Shown: positions 3 through 17,433 of the stretch, in pieces
How the letters are laid out: each line of letters begins with the position of its first letter
Position numbering within the stretch: the stretch's first letter is position 1
Source: Eubacteriales bacterium
GTDB lineage: Bacteria > Bacillota > Clostridia > Oscillospirales > Oscillospiraceae
NCBI GenBank assembly: GCA_030528965.1
Contig: JAUMXS010000015.1
Span: 1-17,433, forward strand
Reading direction: 5' to 3'
DNA: 17,433 nt
The notes under the pieces: generated by a model
The model's input: the letters and a program-made list of their open reading frames with translations, nothing else
Databases searched by the model: none
What the model was told of the DNA's origin: nothing
Program-made: the position numbers and the translations under genes

Positions 3-197
3 CAGATTGAAAAAACAGGAACTGCGTTTGCCGTTGATATGTTGTTGGCAAAGTTTGTGCAGGGACTTCCCGTGGTGGGGGTGCTCGGCGGTGTAGGAAA
101 CCCGGTCTGTTACAACCGGGTCATGAGGTATGTGCATCTGAAATACAGGAAACGATACCTGCTAACGGTAGCAAAGAGAAAAGGGTTTACCCTGTAA
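3..197 (+). CDS. EcsC family protein, C-terminal fragment (cut by window edge)
   Basis: An open frame enters from the left edge and ends at TAA 195-197, giving 64 residues. The segment PVVGVLGGVGNPVCYNRV followed by a basic, Tyr-rich tail resembles the C-terminal end of EcsC-family proteins, which carry a Gly-rich hydrophobic stretch, then N...NRV and an aromatic/basic tail. The family's biochemical role is not established; it is named after the third gene of the Bacillus ecs ABC transporter locus. A strong terminator follows directly, so this is the last gene of its transcript. It probably belongs to the element whose recombinase lies downstream, because the missing half of cotJC should lie beyond it. 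That placement is inferred. The family call is moderately sure because only the tail is visible. Confidence 0.6.
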   Translation, partial: QIEKTGTAFAVDMLLAKFVQGLPVVGVLGGVGNPVCYNRVMRYVHLKYRKRYLLTVAKRKGFTL

Positions 198-268: not shown

Positions 269-541
269 ATGAAAAGTGAACGGCAAGCCGGCGGCATAGG
301 GCTATGGAAACGCTCATACCTATTAGTAAAGGGAGGTGCTGCTGCGCTGAGTAAAAGAGAATGGATTTATACCGGGGAGACAGTCCCGGACCTGAATGAG
401 AAGGAATACACGGCGCTTCTGAGAAATGTGCAGAGAGCAGTTCTCTTTTCTTTGGAGGCGAGGGGAATGCTTACTGCCTCAGAGCGATCACGCTGTGAGG
501 CGGCACTAACAGAGGAATACACCCGAAAACAGAGAAAGTAA
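269..541 (+). CDS. Small hypothetical protein upstream of the serine recombinase
   Basis: I do not recognise this protein. The ATG at 269 gives 90 residues but has no clear ribosome binding site. An excellent one, GGGAGGTG at 331-338, sits nine bases before an in-frame CTG at 347, which would give a 64-residue protein beginning (M)SKREWIYTGETVP. The shorter form is compact, charged and probably helical, and its second half (FSLEARGMLTASE) has the 'helix, G-x-L-T-x-x-E, helix' look of SHOCT-like modules. The gene lies 62 bases upstream of the recombinase on the same strand. Small proteins beside large serine recombinases can be recombination directionality factors, so that is one possible role, but no homology was seen to support it. 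Coding is likely; start and function are uncertain. Confidence 0.6.
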   Translation: MKSERQAGGIGLWKRSYLLVKGGAAALSKREWIYTGETVPDLNEKEYTALLRNVQRAVLFSLEARGMLTASERSRCEAALTEEYTRKQRK

Positions 542-603: not shown

Positions 604-2265
604 ATGTCGACAGACTGGTATGAAAGCATGAATCGGGGCAGAGAAAAGCAGACCGGGAGAAAAAAAGTGGCGGTGTACTGCCGGGTTTCCACAGACAGAG
701 AGGATCAGGCCAACTCGTTCGAGAGTCAGCAAAGGTTTTTTCGGCAATACATTGAGAATAACGCGGACTGGGAACTGTATGAGGTGTTTGCTGATGAGGG
801 GCTTTCCGGGACAACAACGAAAAAGCGCCGGGAATTTAACCGCATGATCGCCTGTGCACAAAGGGGTGAGTTTGATCTTATCCTCACCAAGGAGATTTCC
901 CGTTTTGCCAGAAATACGCTGGACAGCATTCATTATACCCGGGAACTGAAAAAATACGGTGTCGGGGTGCTGTTCATGAATGACGGCATCCATACGCTGG
1001 ACGGCGACGCAGAACTCCGCTTGGCAATCCTGGCTTCCATCGCGCAGGAGGAGAGTCGAAAAACCTCCGAGCGGGTGAAATGGGGTCAGAAACGTCAGAT
1101 GGAAAAAGGAGTCGTGTTCGGCCGGGATATGCTGGGCTATGATGTGCGCGCCGGGAAACTGTATATCAATGAGGAAGGTGCGCAGGTCGTACAGCGTATC
1201 TTCCGAAAATTCGTGGAAGAAGGAAAAGGAACACATGTCATCGCCCGGGAACTGCAGGAGGAGGGCGTTCCGCCTGTGCGTCGGGGCGGGGAGTGGCAGA
1301 ATACTGTTATTCTGCGAATCCTCCGCAACGAAAAATACTGCGGTGATCTGGTGCAGAAAAAGACATATACACCGGATTTCCTGTCGCACGAGAAGAAGTA
1401 TAACCGGGGAGAGGAGGAGTTTGTTATTCTCCGGGACCACCATGAGCCGATCGTTCCCCGGGAATTATTCGAAGCGGCAAGCCGGAAGCTGGATGCAAGA
1501 GCAAAAATCCGAAAGGGGAGCGGAAAATACTCCGACCGTCATCCTTTTTCCGGGAAACTGCGCTGCGGGGCCTGCGGCGCAAACTATGCTGCCCGGTTTA
1601 AAACCAGAGCGGACGGGAGTCGGTATGAGGGCTGGCGATGCCGTGAGGCGGCTGCACACGGACAACCTCATATCGACATAGCCGGACGGTTTGTCGGATG
1701 CATAGGGCCGGGGATCCGCAGCGATGACATCGTAAAGATCCTGCGGCAGATCATCGATAAGCTTTCGTTTGACCGAGAGAAAACGGCGGAGTGCGTATTA
1801 CAGCTGATCCAATCGGTGACGGGAACGGATCCGGAAACGGAAAAGCAGCGTCGGATACTGGAAGCCAGAAGAGAGGGATTATTGGAACTCTACCTGTCCG
1901 GGGACATAAGCGGCGAGGAATTCCGGGCGGCGCGGTCAAAATGTGGGGAAAAACTCTTTGCGATCCATTCATCTCAGGGCAGTTCGGAAAGCTGCCGGGC
2001 ACAGGAAAGAAAAGAGAGAATGGCTGAAGCGGTGCGGGAGGTCCTGTCCGGTCCGGAAGAGGAGGATATGTTTTATCGGCAGCTGCTGGACGCGGCTGTT
2101 ATTCATCCCGACGGACGAATCGATGTCCGTTTGCAGGACCTCTCTTTTATCTGGACCTTTCGTGCTGTTTCGTCGGGAAAAGCCATGCCGCTCAGGAACA
2201 TAAATGATGCGTCGGTACCTATATCGGTCAAAAGTCCTTTGAGTTCCGGGGTGGGCATGGAATAA
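604..2265 (+). CDS. Large serine recombinase (site-specific integrase/excisionase)
   Basis: This 553-residue protein has the layout of large serine recombinases. An N-terminal resolvase catalytic domain (about 20-170) carries YCRVSTD with nucleophile Ser29 and the SRFARNTLDS helix. Next come the Recombinase domain (about 175-300, ending in the LRNEKYCGD signature), a zinc-ribbon region with CGAC, WRC and a later GC pair (about 325-375), and a Glu/Arg-rich coiled-coil segment (about 410-460). Such enzymes cut attP and attB through a phosphoserine link and integrate or excise an element without homology. The start is ATG 604, behind GAAAGGGAG. The gene ends inside DNA that encodes cotJC on the other strand, so the last 17 or so residues are read from host sequence. 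A recombinase gene abutting its own attachment site is normal for integrated elements. The family call is firm; the specific element is unknown. Confidence 0.95.
   Translation: MSTDWYESMNRGREKQTGRKKVAVYCRVSTDREDQANSFESQQRFFRQYIENNADWELYEVFADEGLSGTTTKKRREFNRMIACAQRGEFDLILTKEISRFARNTLDSIHYTRELKKYGVGVLFMNDGIHTLDGDAELRLAILASIAQEESRKTSERVKWGQKRQMEKGVVFGRDMLGYDVRAGKLYINEEGAQVVQRIFRKFVEEGKGTHVIARELQEEGVPPVRRGGEWQNTVILRILRNEKYCGDLVQKKTYTPDFLSHEKKYNRGEEEFVILRDHHEPIVPRELFEAASRKLDARAKIRKGSGKYSDRHPFSGKLRCGACGANYAARFKTRADGSRYEGWRCREAAAHGQPHIDIAGRFVGCIGPGIRSDDIVKILRQIIDKLSFDREKTAECVLQLIQSVTGTDPETEKQRRILEARREGLLELYLSGDISGEEFRAARSKCGEKLFAIHSSQGSSESCRAQERKERMAEAVREVLSGPEEEDMFYRQLLDAAVIHPDGRIDVRLQDLSFIWTFRAVSSGKAMPLRNINDASVPISVKSPLSSGVGME
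2205..2222. other. Inferred attachment-site junction (attL/attR) of the recombinase element within cotJC
   Basis: Read leftward, the cotJC frame matches the conserved CotJC N-terminus through LLTDIGT (codon 63). The conserved Glu-Glu-x-x-His that should follow is replaced by DASFMF. Loss of similarity therefore lies at about 2213, next to the GGTACC at 2214-2219. The recombinase gene ends across the same point. The exact crossover dinucleotide cannot be fixed without the other end of the element or an uninterrupted cotJC. Confidence 0.65.
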
Positions 2266-2402
2266 CGCTGACTCAGGTAACGCAGGGAAGCACCGAGTTC
2301 GCCGTCCGGTCCGCCGTACTGGCTGATAATAAACTTCGCCAGAGCGGGGTTGGTGTTCCGGATCCGAATGGGGAATTGCAGTTTTTTTTCATATATAAAC
2401 AT
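2211..2402 (-). pseudogene. cotJC: cotJC 5' part: spore-coat manganese-catalase-like protein, interrupted by the element
   Basis: The start is ATG 2402 with an AGGAGGG site, directly after the CotJA-CotJB stop. Residues 1-63 (IYEKKLQFP, LAKFIISQYGGPDGELGAS, LRYLSQRYSMP, LLTDIGT) match the N-terminus of CotJC, a spore coat protein of the manganese-catalase family that is normally about 190 residues. The next codons should give the metal-binding Glu-Glu-x-x-His of the ferritin-like fold; instead the frame enters the recombinase element and meets a stop at 2103. As it stands the gene cannot encode a working protein. If the element excises precisely, the frame would be restored by the 3' half, which should lie left of this window. 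CotJC belongs to the outer spore structure made in the mother cell, where loss of the element would do no harm to the heritable genome. Identity is firm; restoration by excision is inferred. Confidence 0.85.
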
Positions 2403-10973: not shown

Positions 10974-12005
10974 CTACGCGCAAGCTGCCAGGAACACGTC
11001 AAACAGTTCTGCGGAGGAGTGCCAGTCCAATATACGGCGCGGGTAGTTGTTGATCCAGTCTATTGCTTTCTGTATGCTGCGGGCAGATACCTTGCGGAAG
11101 TCGGTACCTTTGGGGAAAAACCATCGTATCATCTGGTTTTGTTTCTCGTTGCTGCCGCGCTCGCCTGGGTACCGGGGGTGGCAGTAGTACATGTGGGTGC
11201 GGCTGCCTCTGCCGGTGACGCTGCGTTCCATGCCGGTGCAGTCCATGAACTCGTGGCCGTTGTCCACGGTGATGCTCTGGAACACCTGCTTAAACCGGCG
11301 CACGCCGTACTTGCGCTCCAATCGGTCCAGCGCGTCAACGACGCTGGCGGCGGTCTGGTCCCGCATGGGGATAGCGATCTCCTGGCGGGTGACGCGCTCG
11401 GTCATAACAAGCAGCGTGCGCTTGCTGCCTTTCTTGCCCTCCACACAGTCCATTTCCCAATGTCCCGGCTCCTCCCGGTTGTTGATATGCTCCGGGCGGC
11501 GCTCTATGCTGTCGCCACGGCTGGCCCTGGAGGCCCGCTTCACCTTTTTGTAGGTGCGCTTCTTGCTGCCCTTGTACCGCAGCTGCTTGTTGGTCAGCGG
11601 CCACAGGTAGCCCTCGTCGATGTACTTATACACCGTCTGCCGGGTGAGGGTGACGGAGAATGTGGTTTCCGGGGTCTTGCCCAACAGAGCGCAGGCAGCA
11701 GAGGGAGAATAGCCCTTGGTGCCGATCATATCCACCAGCCATTCAGCCAGGGCGTGATCGTGGCCGATCTTCAAGGGCTTCTCCCTGTTCTTCCGGCCCT
11801 CCTCGCGCTTGGCCTCGCTCATTTCCGGGGCGTAAACGGTGACAGGCCGCAGCTCGCTGTCCAGGATCTCCACAGCGCCGCGCTTGATCTCGTCGTAGAT
11901 CGTGCTATGATGCACACCCAGCTTCCGGGCGATAGCCGGGGCCTTATAGCCCTGTTTGAGCATCTTCTCTATTGTGAGCTTATCATTCCAGGTCAAACGC
12001 GGCAT
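10974..12005 (-). CDS. IS30-family DDE transposase
   Basis: This 343-residue protein has an N-terminal helix-turn-helix (IARKLGVHHSTIYDEIKR, 25-42) and the IS30-type catalytic core: Asp186 in HWEMDCVEG, Asp248 in TVDNGHEF and Glu287 in GERGSNEKQNQ. Length and motifs are intact, so it should be active. IS30 enzymes cut and join element ends with short terminal inverted repeats. The start is ATG 12005, with GGAGGGGG upstream and a possible promoter at 12040-12069. I found no convincing terminal inverted repeats around it. It sits between the last host gene and phage-type genes, so it is either an IS copy at the junction or the prophage's own integration enzyme. The family call is firm; the role is open. 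Confidence 0.92.
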   Translation of the reverse strand: MPRLTWNDKLTIEKMLKQGYKAPAIARKLGVHHSTIYDEIKRGAVEILDSELRPVTVYAPEMSEAKREEGRKNREKPLKIGHDHALAEWLVDMIGTKGYSPSAACALLGKTPETTFSVTLTRQTVYKYIDEGYLWPLTNKQLRYKGSKKRTYKKVKRASRASRGDSIERRPEHINNREEPGHWEMDCVEGKKGSKRTLLVMTERVTRQEIAIPMRDQTAASVVDALDRLERKYGVRRFKQVFQSITVDNGHEFMDCTGMERSVTGRGSRTHMYYCHPRYPGERGSNEKQNQMIRWFFPKGTDFRKVSARSIQKAIDWINNYPRRILDWHSSAELFDVFLAACA

Positions 12006-12510: not shown

Positions 12511-13317
12511 TTACTTAACAAGGCCCAGCTTCTCGGCCAGGCGGCAGAGGAACACGATCATGTGCTCGCGGGTGGCGAAAGCCTTATACATCTTTCTGCC
12601 GGAGCCGTCGCCGTAGATGATGCCGTTTTCCTCGGCCCACTTGCGTTCTGCTTCGCTCCAGTCCGCAGGCTCCTCCTGTGCCTGGCGTGCAAGCCAGTCG
12701 GCCATGAGCTTATCAAACTGTTCCTGGGTCACTTCGCCGTTGCCTCCTTTCATGCGTGCCGCAACATCGGCTCTGAACGTGTCCATGTTGTAGTCCATAT
12801 CCAGCTGCGCCCACAGGTGATCCGGGTCGCCGTGATTGCTGGCGATACCCAGGGCGTGGCCCTCCGCGTGGCTGATAATATCCACTTTGGGGTTAAGGTT
12901 GTGGAAAGCGCAGAGCTGCGCGAACAGCTCCACGGCGTTGGCCGTCACCTTTTCCACATAGGCTACAGCTGCCGTGCGGTCGGAACAGGTGAAGTTTGCA
13001 CCGCCGGTGTACTTGATACAGGACGGCTCGCACATTTCAAAGCCCAGGTGCGTGTTGTTGCTCTTGCCGCCGCCGTGCCAGCCGCGCATAGCCTTGCCGG
13101 GCTGCTCCATGCAGGGCAGAGCAATAATGGTTTCGTTCTCGCCGATGAAGCCGTGGACGCAGGCGTTGTTGTAGCTCTCCTTGTTCCAGAGATTTACGAA
13201 AACGCGGGGGTTCGGCTGCGGGCAGCCGATACTATGCAGCATAAGGCCCTTAACCTGGATCGTCTGGCCCTTTTTGTAGCAGGGGTTCCGGGTGAAATAC
13301 TCGGTCACGATGCCCAT
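12511..13317 (-). CDS. Phage endolysin, N-acetylmuramoyl-L-alanine amidase
   Basis: This 268-residue protein has an amidase_2/PGRP-like catalytic domain (about 10-185). Zinc-ligand candidates are His28 in LMLHSIG and the histidines of SHAEGHALGIASNHGDPDHLW; the GFEMCEP region fits the same fold. It would cut the amide between muramic acid and L-Ala in the host wall at the end of phage growth. The C-terminus (about 220-266) holds one SLH-like repeat (WAEENGIIYGDGSG then TREHMIVFLCRLAE), a likely wall-binding module. There is no signal peptide, so release depends on the holin encoded just upstream. The start is ATG 13317, with AGGAGGAG eight bases upstream. It is last in a leftward lysis cassette with a strong terminator. 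Confidence 0.92.
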   Translation of the reverse strand: MGIVTEYFTRNPCYKKGQTIQVKGLMLHSIGCPQPNPRVFVNLWNKESYNNACVHGFIGENETIIALPCMEQPGKAMRGWHGGGKSNNTHLGFEMCEPSCIKYTGGANFTCSDRTAAVAYVEKVTANAVELFAQLCAFHNLNPKVDIISHAEGHALGIASNHGDPDHLWAQLDMDYNMDTFRADVAARMKGGNGEVTQEQFDKLMADWLARQAQEEPADWSEAERKWAEENGIIYGDGSGRKMYKAFATREHMIVFLCRLAEKLGLVK

Positions 13318-13320
13318 AGG

Positions 13321-13530
13321 TTACTCCTCCTTTTTGCCTACCGCGTCGCTGATCTTCTGCGTCTGGGTACCGAAGTAGAACGACACAACGATCAGGAAGA
13401 TGGTCATGAAGTCCTGGCCGGTAATATCGCCGCGCAGGCAAAGCACGGCGAAAATCGCTGTCAGGGCGATGGTAACAAGGCTCTTAACGGAGATCAGGGC
13501 TGCCAGCCGCTTGGAAAAGTTTTCGTTCAT
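13321..13530 (-). CDS. Phage holin
   Basis: The start is ATG 13530 behind GAGGAGG, giving 69 residues. It has two closely spaced hydrophobic segments (SLVTIALTAIFAVLCL, about 17-32, and DFMTIFLIVVSFYFGTQTQ, about 40-58) and a short charged tail (KISDAVGKKEE). The size, two-helix topology and place immediately before the amidase (3-base gap) make a holin the natural call. The FMTIFLIVVSFYFG stretch is like holins seen in clostridial prophages. It would open the cytoplasmic membrane to let the endolysin out. Confidence 0.8.
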   Translation of the reverse strand: MNENFSKRLAALISVKSLVTIALTAIFAVLCLRGDITGQDFMTIFLIVVSFYFGTQTQKISDAVGKKEE

Positions 13531-13544
13531 AGCGTGATACCTCC

Positions 13545-13805
13545 TCAATAATCTCTCTTTTGTTTCTTCTCCGGCCCATTGCTGGTGCCGAATACTACGC
13601 TGTCGTTATGCTCAAAGATGTTGCCCACCACTTTCAGGATGCTTACGCCCAAAATGGTTTCAATGGCCTGCTCGGACAGCTCCACTACGGGGAACACCTG
13701 GCCCAGGCGAACGGTGGCATAAAGGGCGATCAGATAGGAGATCGACACCCAGGCCAGCGCTGCCAGCTGCGTGGTGACGAACAGGAAGTGTGTAACTTTC
13801 TTCAC
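13545..13805 (-). CDS. Small phage membrane protein of the lysis cassette
   Basis: The start chosen is GTG 13805, with AGGAGG seven bases upstream, giving 86 residues beginning (M)KKVTHFLFV. A TTG at 13823 would overlap the ribosome site. Two hydrophobic stretches (about 7-32, VTTQLAALAWVSISYLIALY, and a weaker one near 50-65, ILGVSILKVVGNIF) surround a short polar loop, and the tail is charged (GPEKKQKRDY). I do not know its function; it may be an accessory holin, antiholin or structural-lysis link. It ends 14 bases before the holin start and 14 bases after the upstream gene's start of overlap, so it is co-translated with its neighbours. Confidence 0.7.
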   Translation of the reverse strand: MKKVTHFLFVTTQLAALAWVSISYLIALYATVRLGQVFPVVELSEQAIETILGVSILKVVGNIFEHNDSVVFGTSNGPEKKQKRDY

Positions 13806-13819
13806 GCCGTCGCCTCCTA

Positions 13820-14116
13820 TCAATGCTCATGGCCGCCATCTGTTTCCAGGCGATCAATGCGGTGGTGGGCCTGCTTTGCGCTGCTCTCAACGGCAGACAG
13901 ACGGGAATACACTTCGGTATTCACCTTGCGCTGCTCCCGGTTTTCGGCTTTCAGGTCGTCAATGCCGCCCTTGATATAGCCTAATTCCGTCAGGACAACG
14001 CCGGTTTGCTGCCCCTCGTTCTTGTCGTCCTTGGTTTTGTTTCGTGAAAACGCGACGTAGGAAAGCGTCGCGCCCAGAACGGTACACACGATCCCAACAA
14101 CGATATTCCACTCCAT
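13820..14116 (-). CDS. XhlA-like phage protein: membrane anchor plus coiled coil
   Basis: From ATG 14116 (an AGGTGAT site precedes it) this is 98 residues. A single N-terminal membrane helix (MEWNIVVGIVCTVLGATLSYVAF) is followed by a polar, heptad-like region (LKAENREQRKVNTEV then LSAVESSAKQAHHRIDRLE, about 50-92). The membrane-plus-coil layout and its place first in the lysis cassette recall the XhlA/hemolysin-associated group of phage lysis proteins, though here the helix is N-terminal. A GTG at 14125 would add three residues. The gene diverges from the 14200 gene across 83 bases. Confidence 0.65.
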   Translation of the reverse strand: MEWNIVVGIVCTVLGATLSYVAFSRNKTKDDKNEGQQTGVVLTELGYIKGGIDDLKAENREQRKVNTEVYSRLSAVESSAKQAHHRIDRLETDGGHEH

Positions 14117-14199
14117 TGGTATCACCTGCCTTTCTTACAAAGCATATCAGAGGCCGCCCGGCGGTTTCACCCCATAAAGCCACAAATAGGAGGGTTTTT

Positions 14200-14520
14200 A
14201 TGAAAAAGAAGCAAGCGGCAATCCCGCGCCATATTGTAGTCGATACCTCCACCGGCGAGGTCGTGGGTGTTGCAAAGAGATCCCATACGCCCGTCGTGGT
14301 GGCCGTCGTGCTGGCGTTGGCCCTGGTGGTGTGCGTAAGTATGTATGCTTACATACATACACGGCCCGCACAAGAGCCGGAGCCGCAGCAGCAGGCACAA
14401 GAGCAGGAGCGAATCGCCAGTGAATTCTTGCATGAAAAGGCCCAGGAGCGTGCAGAGAAGATAGACGAAATATACGGGCCGGGGGCGTATGGCGGCACCG
14501 ATTGGCTGAATGGAGAGTGA
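14200..14520 (+). CDS. Small single-span membrane protein, phage accessory gene
   Basis: The start is ATG 14200 with AGGAGG six bases upstream; the longer frame from 14044 is rejected. The 106-residue product has a basic N-terminus (MKKKQAAIPRH), one strong membrane helix (about 31-49, VVVAVVLALALVVCVSMYA) and a Gln/Glu-rich, probably coiled-coil exterior or cytoplasmic tail (QEQERIASEFLHEKAQERAEK). It is not recognised. It lies on the strand opposite the lysis and giant-protein genes, with a partner gene overlapping its end, which is how morons and superinfection-exclusion genes often sit. That role is inferred from position. Confidence 0.7.
   Translation: MKKKQAAIPRHIVVDTSTGEVVGVAKRSHTPVVVAVVLALALVVCVSMYAYIHTRPAQEPEPQQQAQEQERIASEFLHEKAQERAEKIDEIYGPGAYGGTDWLNGE
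14339..14360. repeat. Perfect 9-bp inverted repeat inside the small membrane-protein gene
   Basis: GTATGTATG (14339-14347) and CATACATAC (14352-14360) are separated by CTTA. It lies within the coding region at the end of the membrane helix. Confidence 0.6.
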
Positions 14521-14524
14521 TAGC

Positions 14525-14755
14525 GTGAAAAAAGGGGATTTGCTGCTCATTCTTGCAGTGGTTTTAATCGGGGTTGCTCTTTGGCTGGGACATAGCACCG
14601 GTTACGACAAAGGGTACACCCAGGGATTTTACGGTGCAGAGCGCGATCTGTTCAACGGCAACGGGCAGGAAGATCACGAATGGTATGAGCAGCTCGTAGA
14701 GAACGACACTTTTTTGGAATGGTTGAAAGACAACGATTATATTTTGCTGCATTAA
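14525..14755 (+). CDS. Second small membrane protein of the rightward pair
   Basis: GTG 14525 is preferred because GGAGAGTGA lies just upstream, inside the end of the previous gene; ATG 14510 would add five residues. The 76-residue product has an N-terminal membrane helix (about 4-22, GDLLLILAVVLIGVALWLG), a Gly/Tyr-rich stretch (GYDKGYTQGFYGAERD) and an acidic tail rich in Trp and Leu (WYEQLVENDTFLEWLKDND). I do not recognise it. It follows the 14200 gene on the same strand and closes the pair with a strong terminator, so the two should be co-expressed. Confidence 0.7.
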   Translation: MKKGDLLLILAVVLIGVALWLGHSTGYDKGYTQGFYGAERDLFNGNGQEDHEWYEQLVENDTFLEWLKDNDYILLH

Positions 14756-14756
14756 G

Positions 14757-14790
14757 AAAACCGGCAGGCTCGCGCCTGCCGGTCTTTGTT
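14757..14790. terminator. Bidirectional terminator between the small membrane genes and the giant gene
   Basis: CCGGCAGGC (14761-14769) and GCCTGCCGG (14774-14782) pair perfectly around TCGC. AAAA precedes the stem and a T-rich tail follows (TCTTTGTTTT). It serves the rightward pair (stop at 14755) and the leftward giant gene (stop at 14791-14793). Confidence 0.88.
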
Positions 14791-17433
14791 TTAGGGCTTG
14801 TGTTTCTTCCAGGGGTTGTTCTTGTCGCTGTCGTACTCGGAGTGGAACAAGATATAAGCCTCCTCGTAGGTTAGGTTTTCGTTGGCAATCATGGCTTCCA
14901 GGATGCCGATAACCTCGTCCTGCTTCAGGCTCCCGTCATCGTTTGCAAGGTCACGCTGGGCCTTGTAGGAGATAACGGTATCGTTGCTCACGCCCTCAAA
15001 CTCTGCGAAGTAGTCCGTCTGGGTCGCGCCGATCCGGGCGAGGACGCGGTTGGTGGCCTCCTCCTTCGCCACGTCCTTTGCAGCTTTCAGCACGGCAGCC
15101 TGCTGCGCCAGCGTGTCGCGGGTGTTCAGGTTGGCTTCCACGTAGTTCCAGTACAGCCGCAGATAGTCGGTCTGGTATTCCACGTACTGCACGTCGGACA
15201 GGGTGTGAGAAACTTCCTTGCCGTCCTTAATGGTGCTTTGCATGACGCTGGGGAGGTTTTCTGTGCTGCCCTGGCGCTCGCACACGGAATACACCGCCCT
15301 CTGCGCCGCCGTCAGCTCGCCGCTGTCGGCGGCTTTCTGGTATTCCAGGATCATGTTCAGCACGGTCTGGCGGGTTGCCCTGGTGGCCGTGGTTTCGGCG
15401 GCGTTCTTCGCCAGCTTGTAGTAGCGGGAGTAGAACGTGGTCATGTTGCTGTCCATCTTGTAGGTAATGGCCTTTTCCATGTTGCCGCCGTCGCTGTTCT
15501 TCGCTTTCTGGGAGGCTTCCGCCTGGCTATACAGCCAGTTCACCAGGTCGGTGGAATACTGGTTGTCCTTGATGTAGCTGTTCTGCACACCCAGGGTGTA
15601 GTCCACATTCTCCTTGCCCACCGGGAACAGGGCCTTTTGAGATTTCCACCAGCCGCCCAGAACGGAGTTGAAGAAGTAATCCACCATTTGCGGGCTGGTA
15701 TTAAAGGCCTGGCCTACCCAGTACGCAATCTTGGAAGTGCGCTCGTTGTACTGGTCTTTTGCCTCCAGGTTCTGCAATCCGCTGGAAACGATGGGCCGCC
15801 CCAGGAAGTCCCGGTTTGCCATCATGTAGGAGCCTACGCCCACAATGCCCAGGCTGCCGATTGCTCCGGCAATGTCGCCCTGGGCCACGTCGGAAAAGAC
15901 GGATGGCAGCCAGTTATCCGCAGCGTAGGAATAGAACTCGTCAAAAGCGTGGTCGTTCTCGCCGATGCCGTATTCCATGCAGGTTTCAAAGAAAGAGGTC
16001 AGCACGCCCAGGTCGCGGGGCTTGGGGATAGAGAAATACTTTCCGTCGCCCAGAGGAATATTCCAATAGCTGTTCTTGGTGTAGTTGGAAAGCTGCTCGT
16101 AATCTTCCTCGGCCTCGTCGTCCCAGTTGTTCAGCCCATAGAACAGGGCTGCCAGGGCAGCGCTCACAGCGATATAGGAGATCGTGCGGGCGCGGACTAC
16201 CTTTGCGCGGGTTTCCGCCGGCGCGTCGGTGGCGGTGATCCAGCGGCGGAACTTGTCGAGGCCCTGCACGCTGGCGTTGAAGAACGGAACTACCTTGTTG
16301 ATCTGGCGGGCGATCTCGCCGCCGCGCCGGAAGTTCACGGTAATATCCATTGCTTCATAGAACGCCTCCTGCGGCCCCATGCCCGCCTGCCGCATGAGCT
16401 TATAGGTCGCAAAGCGCGGCCCCAGCTCCACCGTGTCGCTGACAAAACCGATCCAGTCCAGGGGGTTGGCGCTGAACTTTCTGTCGGAAAGGGCCTTGCG
16501 GGCCTTTTTCGCCAGGTCGCGGTCTGCGGTGTAGGCGCTGGTCTTGCCACCGCCCATTGCCAGGTATTCCTTGTAGAGTGGGTCGGCGTTGTCACCCTTG
16601 ATCTTGTTCACATAGGCGCTGCCCATAGAGGCAAACACCTTTGCGGGGTTGCGTACCTTGGAGTAGGTGAAGAACGTACCCATGTCGCGGGGGAAGTTGG
16701 AGAAGATAGACCAGATGATGTTATTGCCGGTGATGTTCGCCGTCATGAAGCGGCTCACCATAGCATAAGCGTCCAGAATACCCTCCATTTTCTTGGGGGC
16801 CATGTTGGTAACGGAGGACAGCAGCAGCGGGTCGTTGATCTTCCAGAACTCTTGATCGCCATTCTTCAGAACGGTAATCACGTCGCCGTGGGCCTTACCT
16901 CTGCCGTACTGGTACAGAATGTCGTCCAGGTTGCTGACAATCCCGGCAGCCTTGAACTTGTCGGCGGTCTGCATATCGCTCTCGTCGAACCAGTCCGTCA
17001 GCTGCGCCTTTACGCCGGTCATGTCAAAGCCGCGCTTCACCATCGGCGTGGGTACCTTTTCCAGGAATGCCGCGTCGGCTCCCAGGGCCTCCGCCGTGTC
17101 GGTGATCGTGCGCATGACGTTGTTGCGCACACCGGCATTTACCATCTTAACAACGTTGTTGACAATGTTGTCTACCGGGTGGACTACGTCAAGACCGCTG
17201 CCTCGCGCCCGCTTAATAGTGCTGTTCTGGTTTGCAAAGCCTCTCCTGGCTCCGATACCCCGCTTGTCCTCGCTGACGGCGCGGTTCAGGGGTACATAGA
17301 ATTCCCAGCGTTTGCTCCACTCGTCGGCGCTGGTGGGGGACACAAGGCCGGTACCTACGCCCCAGGTCTGGAGGAACTGCTTTTGGAATTCATACAGCCG
17401 CTCGGAGATCTCTTTGAACTGCGGGTACTGCTG
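14791..17433 (-). CDS. Giant phage polyvalent protein, LPD38-like C-terminal part (N-terminus beyond window)
   Basis: The frame is open from the right edge to TAA at 14791, giving about 880 visible residues; GTG 17343 is internal, since 30 more sense codons precede it. The visible first half resembles the LPD38 region of large polyvalent phage proteins: NNIIWSIFSNFPRDMGTFF, then DTVELGPRFATYKLMRQAG, VNFRRGGEIARQINK and FFNASVQGLDKFR, followed by a hydrophobic segment (ISYIAVSAALAALFYG) and IPLGDGKYFSIPKPRDLG. The rest is helical, with Gln/Glu/Ala-rich coils. Polyvalent proteins are very long, multi-domain products that some phages carry in the virion and inject, with enzyme domains further N-terminal. 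If this one follows that pattern, most of it lies outside the window. It is transcribed leftward to the terminator at 14757. The domain call is moderate. Confidence 0.65.
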   Translation of the reverse strand, partial: QQYPQFKEISERLYEFQKQFLQTWGVGTGLVSPTSADEWSKRWEFYVPLNRAVSEDKRGIGARRGFANQNSTIKRARGSGLDVVHPVDNIVNNVVKMVNAGVRNNVMRTITDTAEALGADAAFLEKVPTPMVKRGFDMTGVKAQLTDWFDESDMQTADKFKAAGIVSNLDDILYQYGRGKAHGDVITVLKNGDQEFWKINDPLLLSSVTNMAPKKMEGILDAYAMVSRFMTANITGNNIIWSIFSNFPRDMGTFFTYSKVRNPAKVFASMGSAYVNKIKGDNADPLYKEYLAMGGGKTSAYTADRDLAKKARKALSDRKFSANPLDWIGFVSDTVELGPRFATYKLMRQAGMGPQEAFYEAMDITVNFRRGGEIARQINKVVPFFNASVQGLDKFRRWITATDAPAETRAKVVRARTISYIAVSAALAALFYGLNNWDDEAEEDYEQLSNYTKNSYWNIPLGDGKYFSIPKPRDLGVLTSFFETCMEYGIGENDHAFDEFYSYAADNWLPSVFSDVAQGDIAGAIGSLGIVGVGSYMMANRDFLGRPIVSSGLQNLEAKDQYNERTSKIAYWVGQAFNTSPQMVDYFFNSVLGGWWKSQKALFPVGKENVDYTLGVQNSYIKDNQYSTDLVNWLYSQAEASQKAKNSDGGNMEKAITYKMDSNMTTFYSRYYKLAKNAAETTATRATRQTVLNMILEYQKAADSGELTAAQRAVYSVCERQGSTENLPSVMQSTIKDGKEVSHTLSDVQYVEYQTDYLRLYWNYVEANLNTRDTLAQQAAVLKAAKDVAKEEATNRVLARIGATQTDYFAEFEGVSNDTVISYKAQRDLANDDGSLKQDEVIGILEAMIANENLTYEEAYILFHSEYDSDKNNPWKKHKP

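Follow-up and report, generated by a model that had tools for sequence, protein, structure and literature searches.

The sporulation gene cotJC is split by serine-recombinase elements in an Oscillospiraceae genome and in many of its relatives

In an Oscillospiraceae genome (assembly GCA_030528965.1), the sporulation gene cotJC lies in three pieces, separated by DNA that carries large serine recombinases. The first break falls in positions 1 to 17,433 of contig JAUMXS010000015.1, the stretch called the window below, and abutting pieces of the same gene recur in many genomes of the family. The reading that we favour, and consider quite likely to be right, is that cotJC is interrupted by two serine-recombinase elements that would be excised in the mother cell, the parts of the gene being joined in frame. 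The window's element almost certainly belongs to the gene-intervening kind known from sporulation, as one member of a large and structured set.

The split of cotJC in the source genome is confirmed. The 5′ piece (codons 1 to about 63) occupies positions 2215 to 2402 of the window on the reverse strand, within an open reading frame (2402 to 2103) whose match to the Pfam family Mn_catalase (PF05067) is confined to residues 1–64 (E = 3.3e-17). A custom CotJC HMM, built from 12 intact relatives, matches the piece over the same residues (E = 1.3e-33), in agreement with the earlier note, which had read the frame as family-like to about codon 63 and without similarity thereafter. Similarity to cotJC ends at AGGTAC (2220 to 2215, reverse strand), the presumed crossover region, and leftwards from 2214 lies element sequence, not cotJC, through which the frame runs on to a stop (2103 to 2214, reverse strand). 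Upstream of cotJC, CotJA (PF11007) and CotJB (PF12652) domains are found at 2406 to 2912 of the same strand, sharing one ORF as if fused.

A 3′ part of the gene lies on contig C70 of the same genome (7700 to 8122, reverse strand), where it matches PF05067 positions 61–209 (E = 1.7e-28) and codons 61 to about 178 of the CotJC profile; it and the window piece, which covers positions 1–65 when the whole genome is searched, are the only two PF05067 matches in the source genome. After AGGTAC, the same six bases in the same register, the C70 part begins Gly-Thr-Glu-Glu-Leu-Ser-His (G-T-E-E-L-S-H). The earlier note had predicted a 3′ half starting with Glu-Glu-x-x-His and a short core near GGTACC: the half is there and undecayed, though on a separate contig, and AGGTAC (GGTAC) is common to both cotJC ends. 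The coding-strand sequence is TTGACCGATAT-AGGTAC-CGACGCATC in the window and GATGCTTCTGC-AGGTAC-GGAAGAACTGAGC on C70, and a join of the two at AGGTAC would read Leu-Leu-Thr-Asp-Ile-Gly-Thr-Glu-Glu-Leu-Ser-His without a stop; AGGTAC is thus a short shared core that would give an in-frame cotJC join. Because the window contig and C70 are unjoined in the assembly (1.25 Mb in 167 contigs, 71% complete), we infer the order of and distance between the source genome's own pieces, which lie on two contigs; in relatives the piece order is seen on one contig and one strand. C70 ends in an apparent regulator tail, for which there are three matches in the source genome, none traced to a contig join.

The gene bears a second cut. 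A further ∼25 codons, the cotJC tail, lie 3.9 kb beyond the C70 part, and the interval encodes a U32-type peptidase and another serine recombinase, the latter ending at most 30 bp from the tail; this second element sits near codon 175 (site D). The one cut proposed earlier is borne out; this second cut and the wide occurrence of the split had been missed. Among 10 further stretches fetched, cotJC tails were found in three, with a recombinase abutting the tail in G306 and G375 and lying elsewhere in the stretch in G053; the remaining seven showed no tail within the stretch fetched.

Opposite the window's junction is a gene (604 to 2265, forward strand) with Resolvase, Recombinase and zinc-ribbon domains (PF00239, PF07508 and PF13408), the layout of a large serine recombinase, and its product groups with codon-63 recombinases in trees, in the site-B1 clade. 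The earlier note had placed the end of this gene exactly at the junction; the recombinase is present, but its stop lies about 45 bp inside cotJC. Its last ∼15 codons (2221 to 2265) are cotJC on the opposite strand, and since these C-terminal codons lie in cotJC, excision would change the enzyme's C-terminus. Element cargo includes an EcsC-like C-terminal end (3 to 197, forward strand; PF12787 positions 191–240, under the Pfam cut-off) that is cut by the contig end. The middle of the element is missing: the rest of EcsC had no other match in the source genome, and no phage structural genes were seen in the visible 2.2 kb. Elsewhere in the window, we noted by eye an IS30-type transposase (10974 to 12005) and, on the right side, prophage-like genes (12511 to 17433; an amidase and a large structural protein).

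Across relatives, the elements range in size from 2.4 kb (G024) to more than 30 kb. Each both-ended element of the first locus set carries a serine recombinase, mostly beside the junction (2–4 kb from it in G066 and G350); a further 40 stretches, with one element end apiece, include 16 in which no recombinase ORF was found. Nine small elements of relatives hold metabolic-looking genes (named by eye) and no phage genes recognisable by eye. A gene resembling pyrimidine-nucleoside phosphorylase, again by eye, is common to the small elements L034, L036 and L037.

The cotJC pieces flanking these elements fit together. When they are joined in the HMM register, 43 of 45 cases contain no stop, the exceptions being L047, where the longest shared run lies away from the core, and site D of C70, where the register is misset and the tail is otherwise plain. 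For the 41 joins at sites A–C, to which the comparison with controls applies, the longest run shared by the two ends averages 7.0 bp and reaches at least 6 bp in 23, against a mean of 2.9 bp and 1.8% of cases in 820 out-of-register controls. A separate join search gave 41 stop-free joins out of 41, which we do not count as evidence, as that search admits only in-frame, stop-free joins.

PF05067 was matched in 318 of 400 sampled genomes of the family. We searched again the 95 genomes in which the best match was weakened, together with five with a full-length match; certain other genomes whose single match was weak lie outside this second search. By hand count, two or more cotJC pieces are present in 87 of the 95, and in 81 the pieces meet, by their positions in the profile, at codon ∼30 (site A), ∼63 (site B) or ∼136 (site C), in a number of cases on different contigs (G141, G258, G276, G279, G381 and G390 fall outside the 81). 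With the source genome included, abutting pieces occur in at least 82 of the 318 genomes, a lower bound counted by hand that leaves aside G131, where a split copy lies beside an intact one. By Pfam alone, a count in which site D is too close to the gene end for detection, two breaks appear in seven genomes (G024, G029, G110, G142, G149, G208 and G396), G142 and G396 not being simple double breaks: on contigs C1 of G142 and C122 of G396, two cotJC pieces lie on opposite strands, suggesting inversion. G390 (contig C2), G279 and G381 may have a further break near codon 47–50. Adenylate kinase, examined as a control, was found in 101 of 120 genomes of the family and as complementary halves in none.

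Split cotJC is also present in G097 and G369, each a genome of one contig, and in a cultured strain, Pusillibacter faecalis MM59, where a 504-kb plasmid record has the gene split at the window's site (NZ_AP023421.1, about 241,210–271,736; L119, L281). The P. faecalis element, of ∼30 kb, carries mobC along with genes for replication, partition and restriction-modification. Both cotJC halves are absent from the gene tables shown for it, which are incomplete, indicating that automated annotation can miss cotJC. Flavonifractor sp. An10, Pseudoflavonifractor phocaeensis and Oscillibacter sp. ER4 are further carriers among cultured commensals.

Each insertion site has its own recombinases. Sites A, B1, B2 and C each correspond to one recombinase clade, both in a carefully built tree of 41 sequences and in a quicker one of 63, B1 and B2 being two cores a few bases apart in codons 62–66, labelled from the cores themselves or, for L089 and L091, from recombinase position and orientation. 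Trees of 41, 63 and 69 recombinases, built without L110, the duplicate L116 and ORFs shorter than 300 residues, need four clade-to-site changes, the minimum, and none of 200 shuffles was as low. Six site-D candidates and the one known case form a fifth clade (FastTree); of the candidates, L283 and L286 lie directly beside a tail and L285 has one in its stretch, and for the other three no tail was found. The deep joins of the recombinase tree are unsure because the tool warns of long branches.

The sites themselves fall at particular codons. When CotJC is aligned to solved manganese catalases (hand-numbered), E35, E65, H68, E136 and H169 fall on positions that we take to be metal ligands in those enzymes, and sites A (about codons 29–34), B (61–66), C (133–137) and D (172–176) each adjoin a predicted ligand codon. 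Recombinases targeting the least-changeable codons would keep finding their site across species.

The association also holds when approached from the recombinase. We searched genome contigs with eight B1 recombinases, using no cotJC information, and kept the best 80 of a larger number of loci, which are named Oscillibacter, Flavonifractor, Roseburia, Dorea, Ruminococcus and others and some of which may be of the same species as the sampled genomes. A cotJC piece lies within the fetched 7-kb flanks of 76 of these best 80, and none was found in the flanks fetched for L171, L190, L194 and L197. Two records labelled ‘Bacteriophage sp.’ (L118, MT839280.1; L120, MT837874.1) were considered as excised circles, which their size fitted, an idea that we dropped because both hold a cotJC piece and neither has a terminal repeat of 15 bp or more; they are probably bacterial DNA. 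Among 80 IMG/VR loci found by recombinase, six have a cotJC piece, on contigs that IMG/VR classes as viral, including the four closest and with one of the six resting on a weak 19-codon match, and no free form of the element was recognised in the 80.

Ahead of the window's recombinase lies a small ORF (269 to 541, forward strand; the start codon is probably further in than 269) that has no Pfam match and that we regard as a candidate recombination directionality factor: members of its family stand before 88 of 104 B1 recombinases and none of 35 others. A candidate mother-cell promoter of sigma-E type (296 to 318, forward strand; ATA at 296–298, CATA at 315–318) fits ATA-N15..17-CATA, a pattern read against the sigma-E consensus. 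It is followed by GGGAGG (331 to 336, forward strand), the probable ribosome-binding site of the small ORF, with 17 bases from the start of CATA to the start of GGAGG, a spacing shared by 13 of the 24 relatives in which it was measured. In the window the −10 is CATACCTAT, unlike the CATACATT that is common in relatives.

The pattern ATA-N15..17-CATA, fixed before the larger set of recombinases was fetched, occurs upstream of 39 of the 74 B1 recombinases in that set (shuffles 7.9, opposite strand 13) and of 24 of 57 once near-copies are removed (shuffles 6.2, opposite strand 11), the excess on the opposite strand indicating that composition accounts for part of the enrichment. In the window's own family the signal is weaker: among the first 41 recombinases the pattern is found seven times against 2.3 expected, but five times on the opposite strand. 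Other patterns were set aside. One of them, GCATANNNT[GA], was picked from the first set; it was found in six of 20 further regions (shuffles 0.9, opposite strand 2) and is weak in 74 more (10; shuffles 4.8, opposite strand 3), so that we do not rely on it. ATAT-N16-CATA (20 of 57) was selected with the data already in view, and we do not treat it as a test. A strict cotJ-operon −10 pattern precedes 23 of 51 cotJA genes (opposite strand 1) but one of 41 recombinases, indicating that this exact promoter type is not theirs; a sigma-K pattern precedes one of 41, the same as in shuffles. SpoIVA is intact in the source genome. In this assembly, which is 71% complete, nothing scored above the cut-off of a sigma-E model; the best match (C125:19451–19678) is a short stretch covering model positions 22–97 within a frame of 157 codons, and may represent a contig end, a different sigma factor or a further split gene. 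In B. subtilis, one table lists cotJC under sigma-E (PMC3416734).

To gauge selection on the separated pieces, we computed dN/dS by Nei–Gojobori counts for both cotJC pieces and for the recombinase in nine pairs of split genomes, an argument that presumes the element was already present in the ancestors of each pair. In five same-genus pairs (G180/G305, G197/G053, G088/G213, G165/G259 and G144/G066) the cotJC pieces give 0 to 0.048 and the recombinase 0.08 to 0.21 (saturated in G144/G066, pN/pS 0.31). A sixth, G079/G289, gives ∼0.03 and 0.19, respectively, though its element may have moved, because dS is lower for the recombinase (0.42) than for cotJC (1.3–1.8). The recombinase is thus above the cotJC pieces in all six same-genus pairs; in three different-genus pairs (cotJC 0.03–0.12, recombinase 0.04–0.08) it is not clearly above them. 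Intact cotJC ranges from 0.025 to 0.113 (six pairs from four genomes of one genus), and by this yardstick the split genes are at least as constrained. Pieces so well preserved suggest that the cell removes the elements, rebuilding the gene during spore formation. Regulated excision is backed by this purifying selection, by the sigma-E-type motif in relatives and by a recombinase lineage that is mostly at this site, and an excision timed to sporulation appears likely.

An unlikely alternative is that cotJC is dispensable and its conserved codons are good landing sites, with no developmentally timed excision, the gene being kept alive by occasional excision or through purging by selection. Such a safe harbour would suit elements that carry cargo, among it the mobC and replication genes of the P. 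faecalis element, that sit in the very conserved DNA near predicted metal-ligand codons, and that move between genera: in the site-C pair G369/G283, recombinases 97% identical (dS 0.32) accompany cotJC 5′ pieces only 71% identical (dS 1.9), which shows transfer of the element. It sits poorly with the same-genus pairs, where recombinases are related but diverged and both cotJC halves have dN/dS of at most 0.05, as tight as the intact gene, and with the enrichment of the sigma-E-type motif. Much less probable is that insertion killed cotJC and left relics; the three pieces of the source gene might be read in this way, as might the stops inside the match in 15 listed pieces (hand count, some arising where the match overruns the gene end), but nearly all joins are free of stops and purifying selection is strong. 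We give equally little credence to pieces that are translated separately and then assemble without DNA excision, for which the constraint on both halves could be cited: the breaks lie beside predicted active-site codons, there is a tail piece of ∼25 codons, and the frames, in those cases that were inspected, continue into element sequence that differs from one to the next. An assembly or binning artefact, conceivable for so fragmented and incomplete a source genome, is very improbable given the same arrangement in one-contig G097 and G369 and in the cultured strain's plasmid record.

On the reading that we favour, each element would have arrived through recombination that paired a short cotJC core with a matching core of its own. 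In the mother cell, whose genome is not inherited, the sigma-E-type promoter would switch on the small ORF and the recombinase, and the small protein would steer the recombinase to excise the element as a circle. The cotJC parts would then join in frame at AGGTAC and the coat protein would be made.

Sporulation genes named as split in the literature are sigK, spsM, spoVFB, spoVR, gerE and yabG (PMC4191935, PMC5595907, PMC10747680). Like the cotJC element, gin in gerE of Bacillus cereus lies inside a mother-cell sporulation gene; it is a non-phage element with a large serine recombinase and a directionality factor (GirC, GirX), a short core and a rebuilt gene (PMC5595907), to which the recombinase, the candidate factor, the AGGTAC core and the proposed in-frame join of cotJC would correspond. 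The gene and the recombinases are different, and excision has been shown for gin whereas the cotJC elements are read from sequence. In skin (sigK), SP-beta (spsM), vfbin (spoVFB), vrin (spoVR) and yin (yabG), a serine-recombinase element likewise splits a sporulation gene, and these are described as prophage or prophage-like (PMC4191935, PMC10747680); by eye, neither the visible part of the window's element nor the nine small elements of relatives showed recognisable phage genes, though the six cotJC-bearing IMG/VR contigs are classed as viral. The cotJC elements also differ in occupying five sites in one gene, which can harbour two of them together. CcrB, XisF and other serine recombinases have the same domain layout as the window protein, which scores far under the curated cut-offs of CcrB/XisF-type families (116 against 900 bits; 100 against 375). 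A CotJC homologue beside a prophage deleted in C. difficile is described in PMC11222575, and the available portions of PMC4028888, PMC3416734 and PMC6353076 mention cotJC without a split. The gene-intervening kind is thus already known (skin, gin, yin), and a split cotJC was not found in print in a search of open-access papers other than preprints.

In the published cases, as the portions of those papers available to us describe them, each sporulation gene has one element. Here, of the sampled genomes that have a match, roughly one in four carries cotJC in pieces, at recurrent places and with a recombinase lineage proper to each. We lean, if only slightly, towards seeing cotJC as a dedicated hub in gut Clostridia, at which at least five recombinase lineages would each hold one site beside predicted ligand codons, sometimes with two elements in the gene, such that the mother cell would excise several DNA ‘introns’, some of them shrunk to a recombinase and a small partner (2.4 kb). 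Cargo such as the pyrimidine-nucleoside phosphorylase-like gene would then be lost from the mother cell. As cultured carriers exist, mobile DNA in mother-cell genes and the ownership of codons by recombinases become testable, as does the possibility that a developing bacterium reassembles a single gene from several parts.
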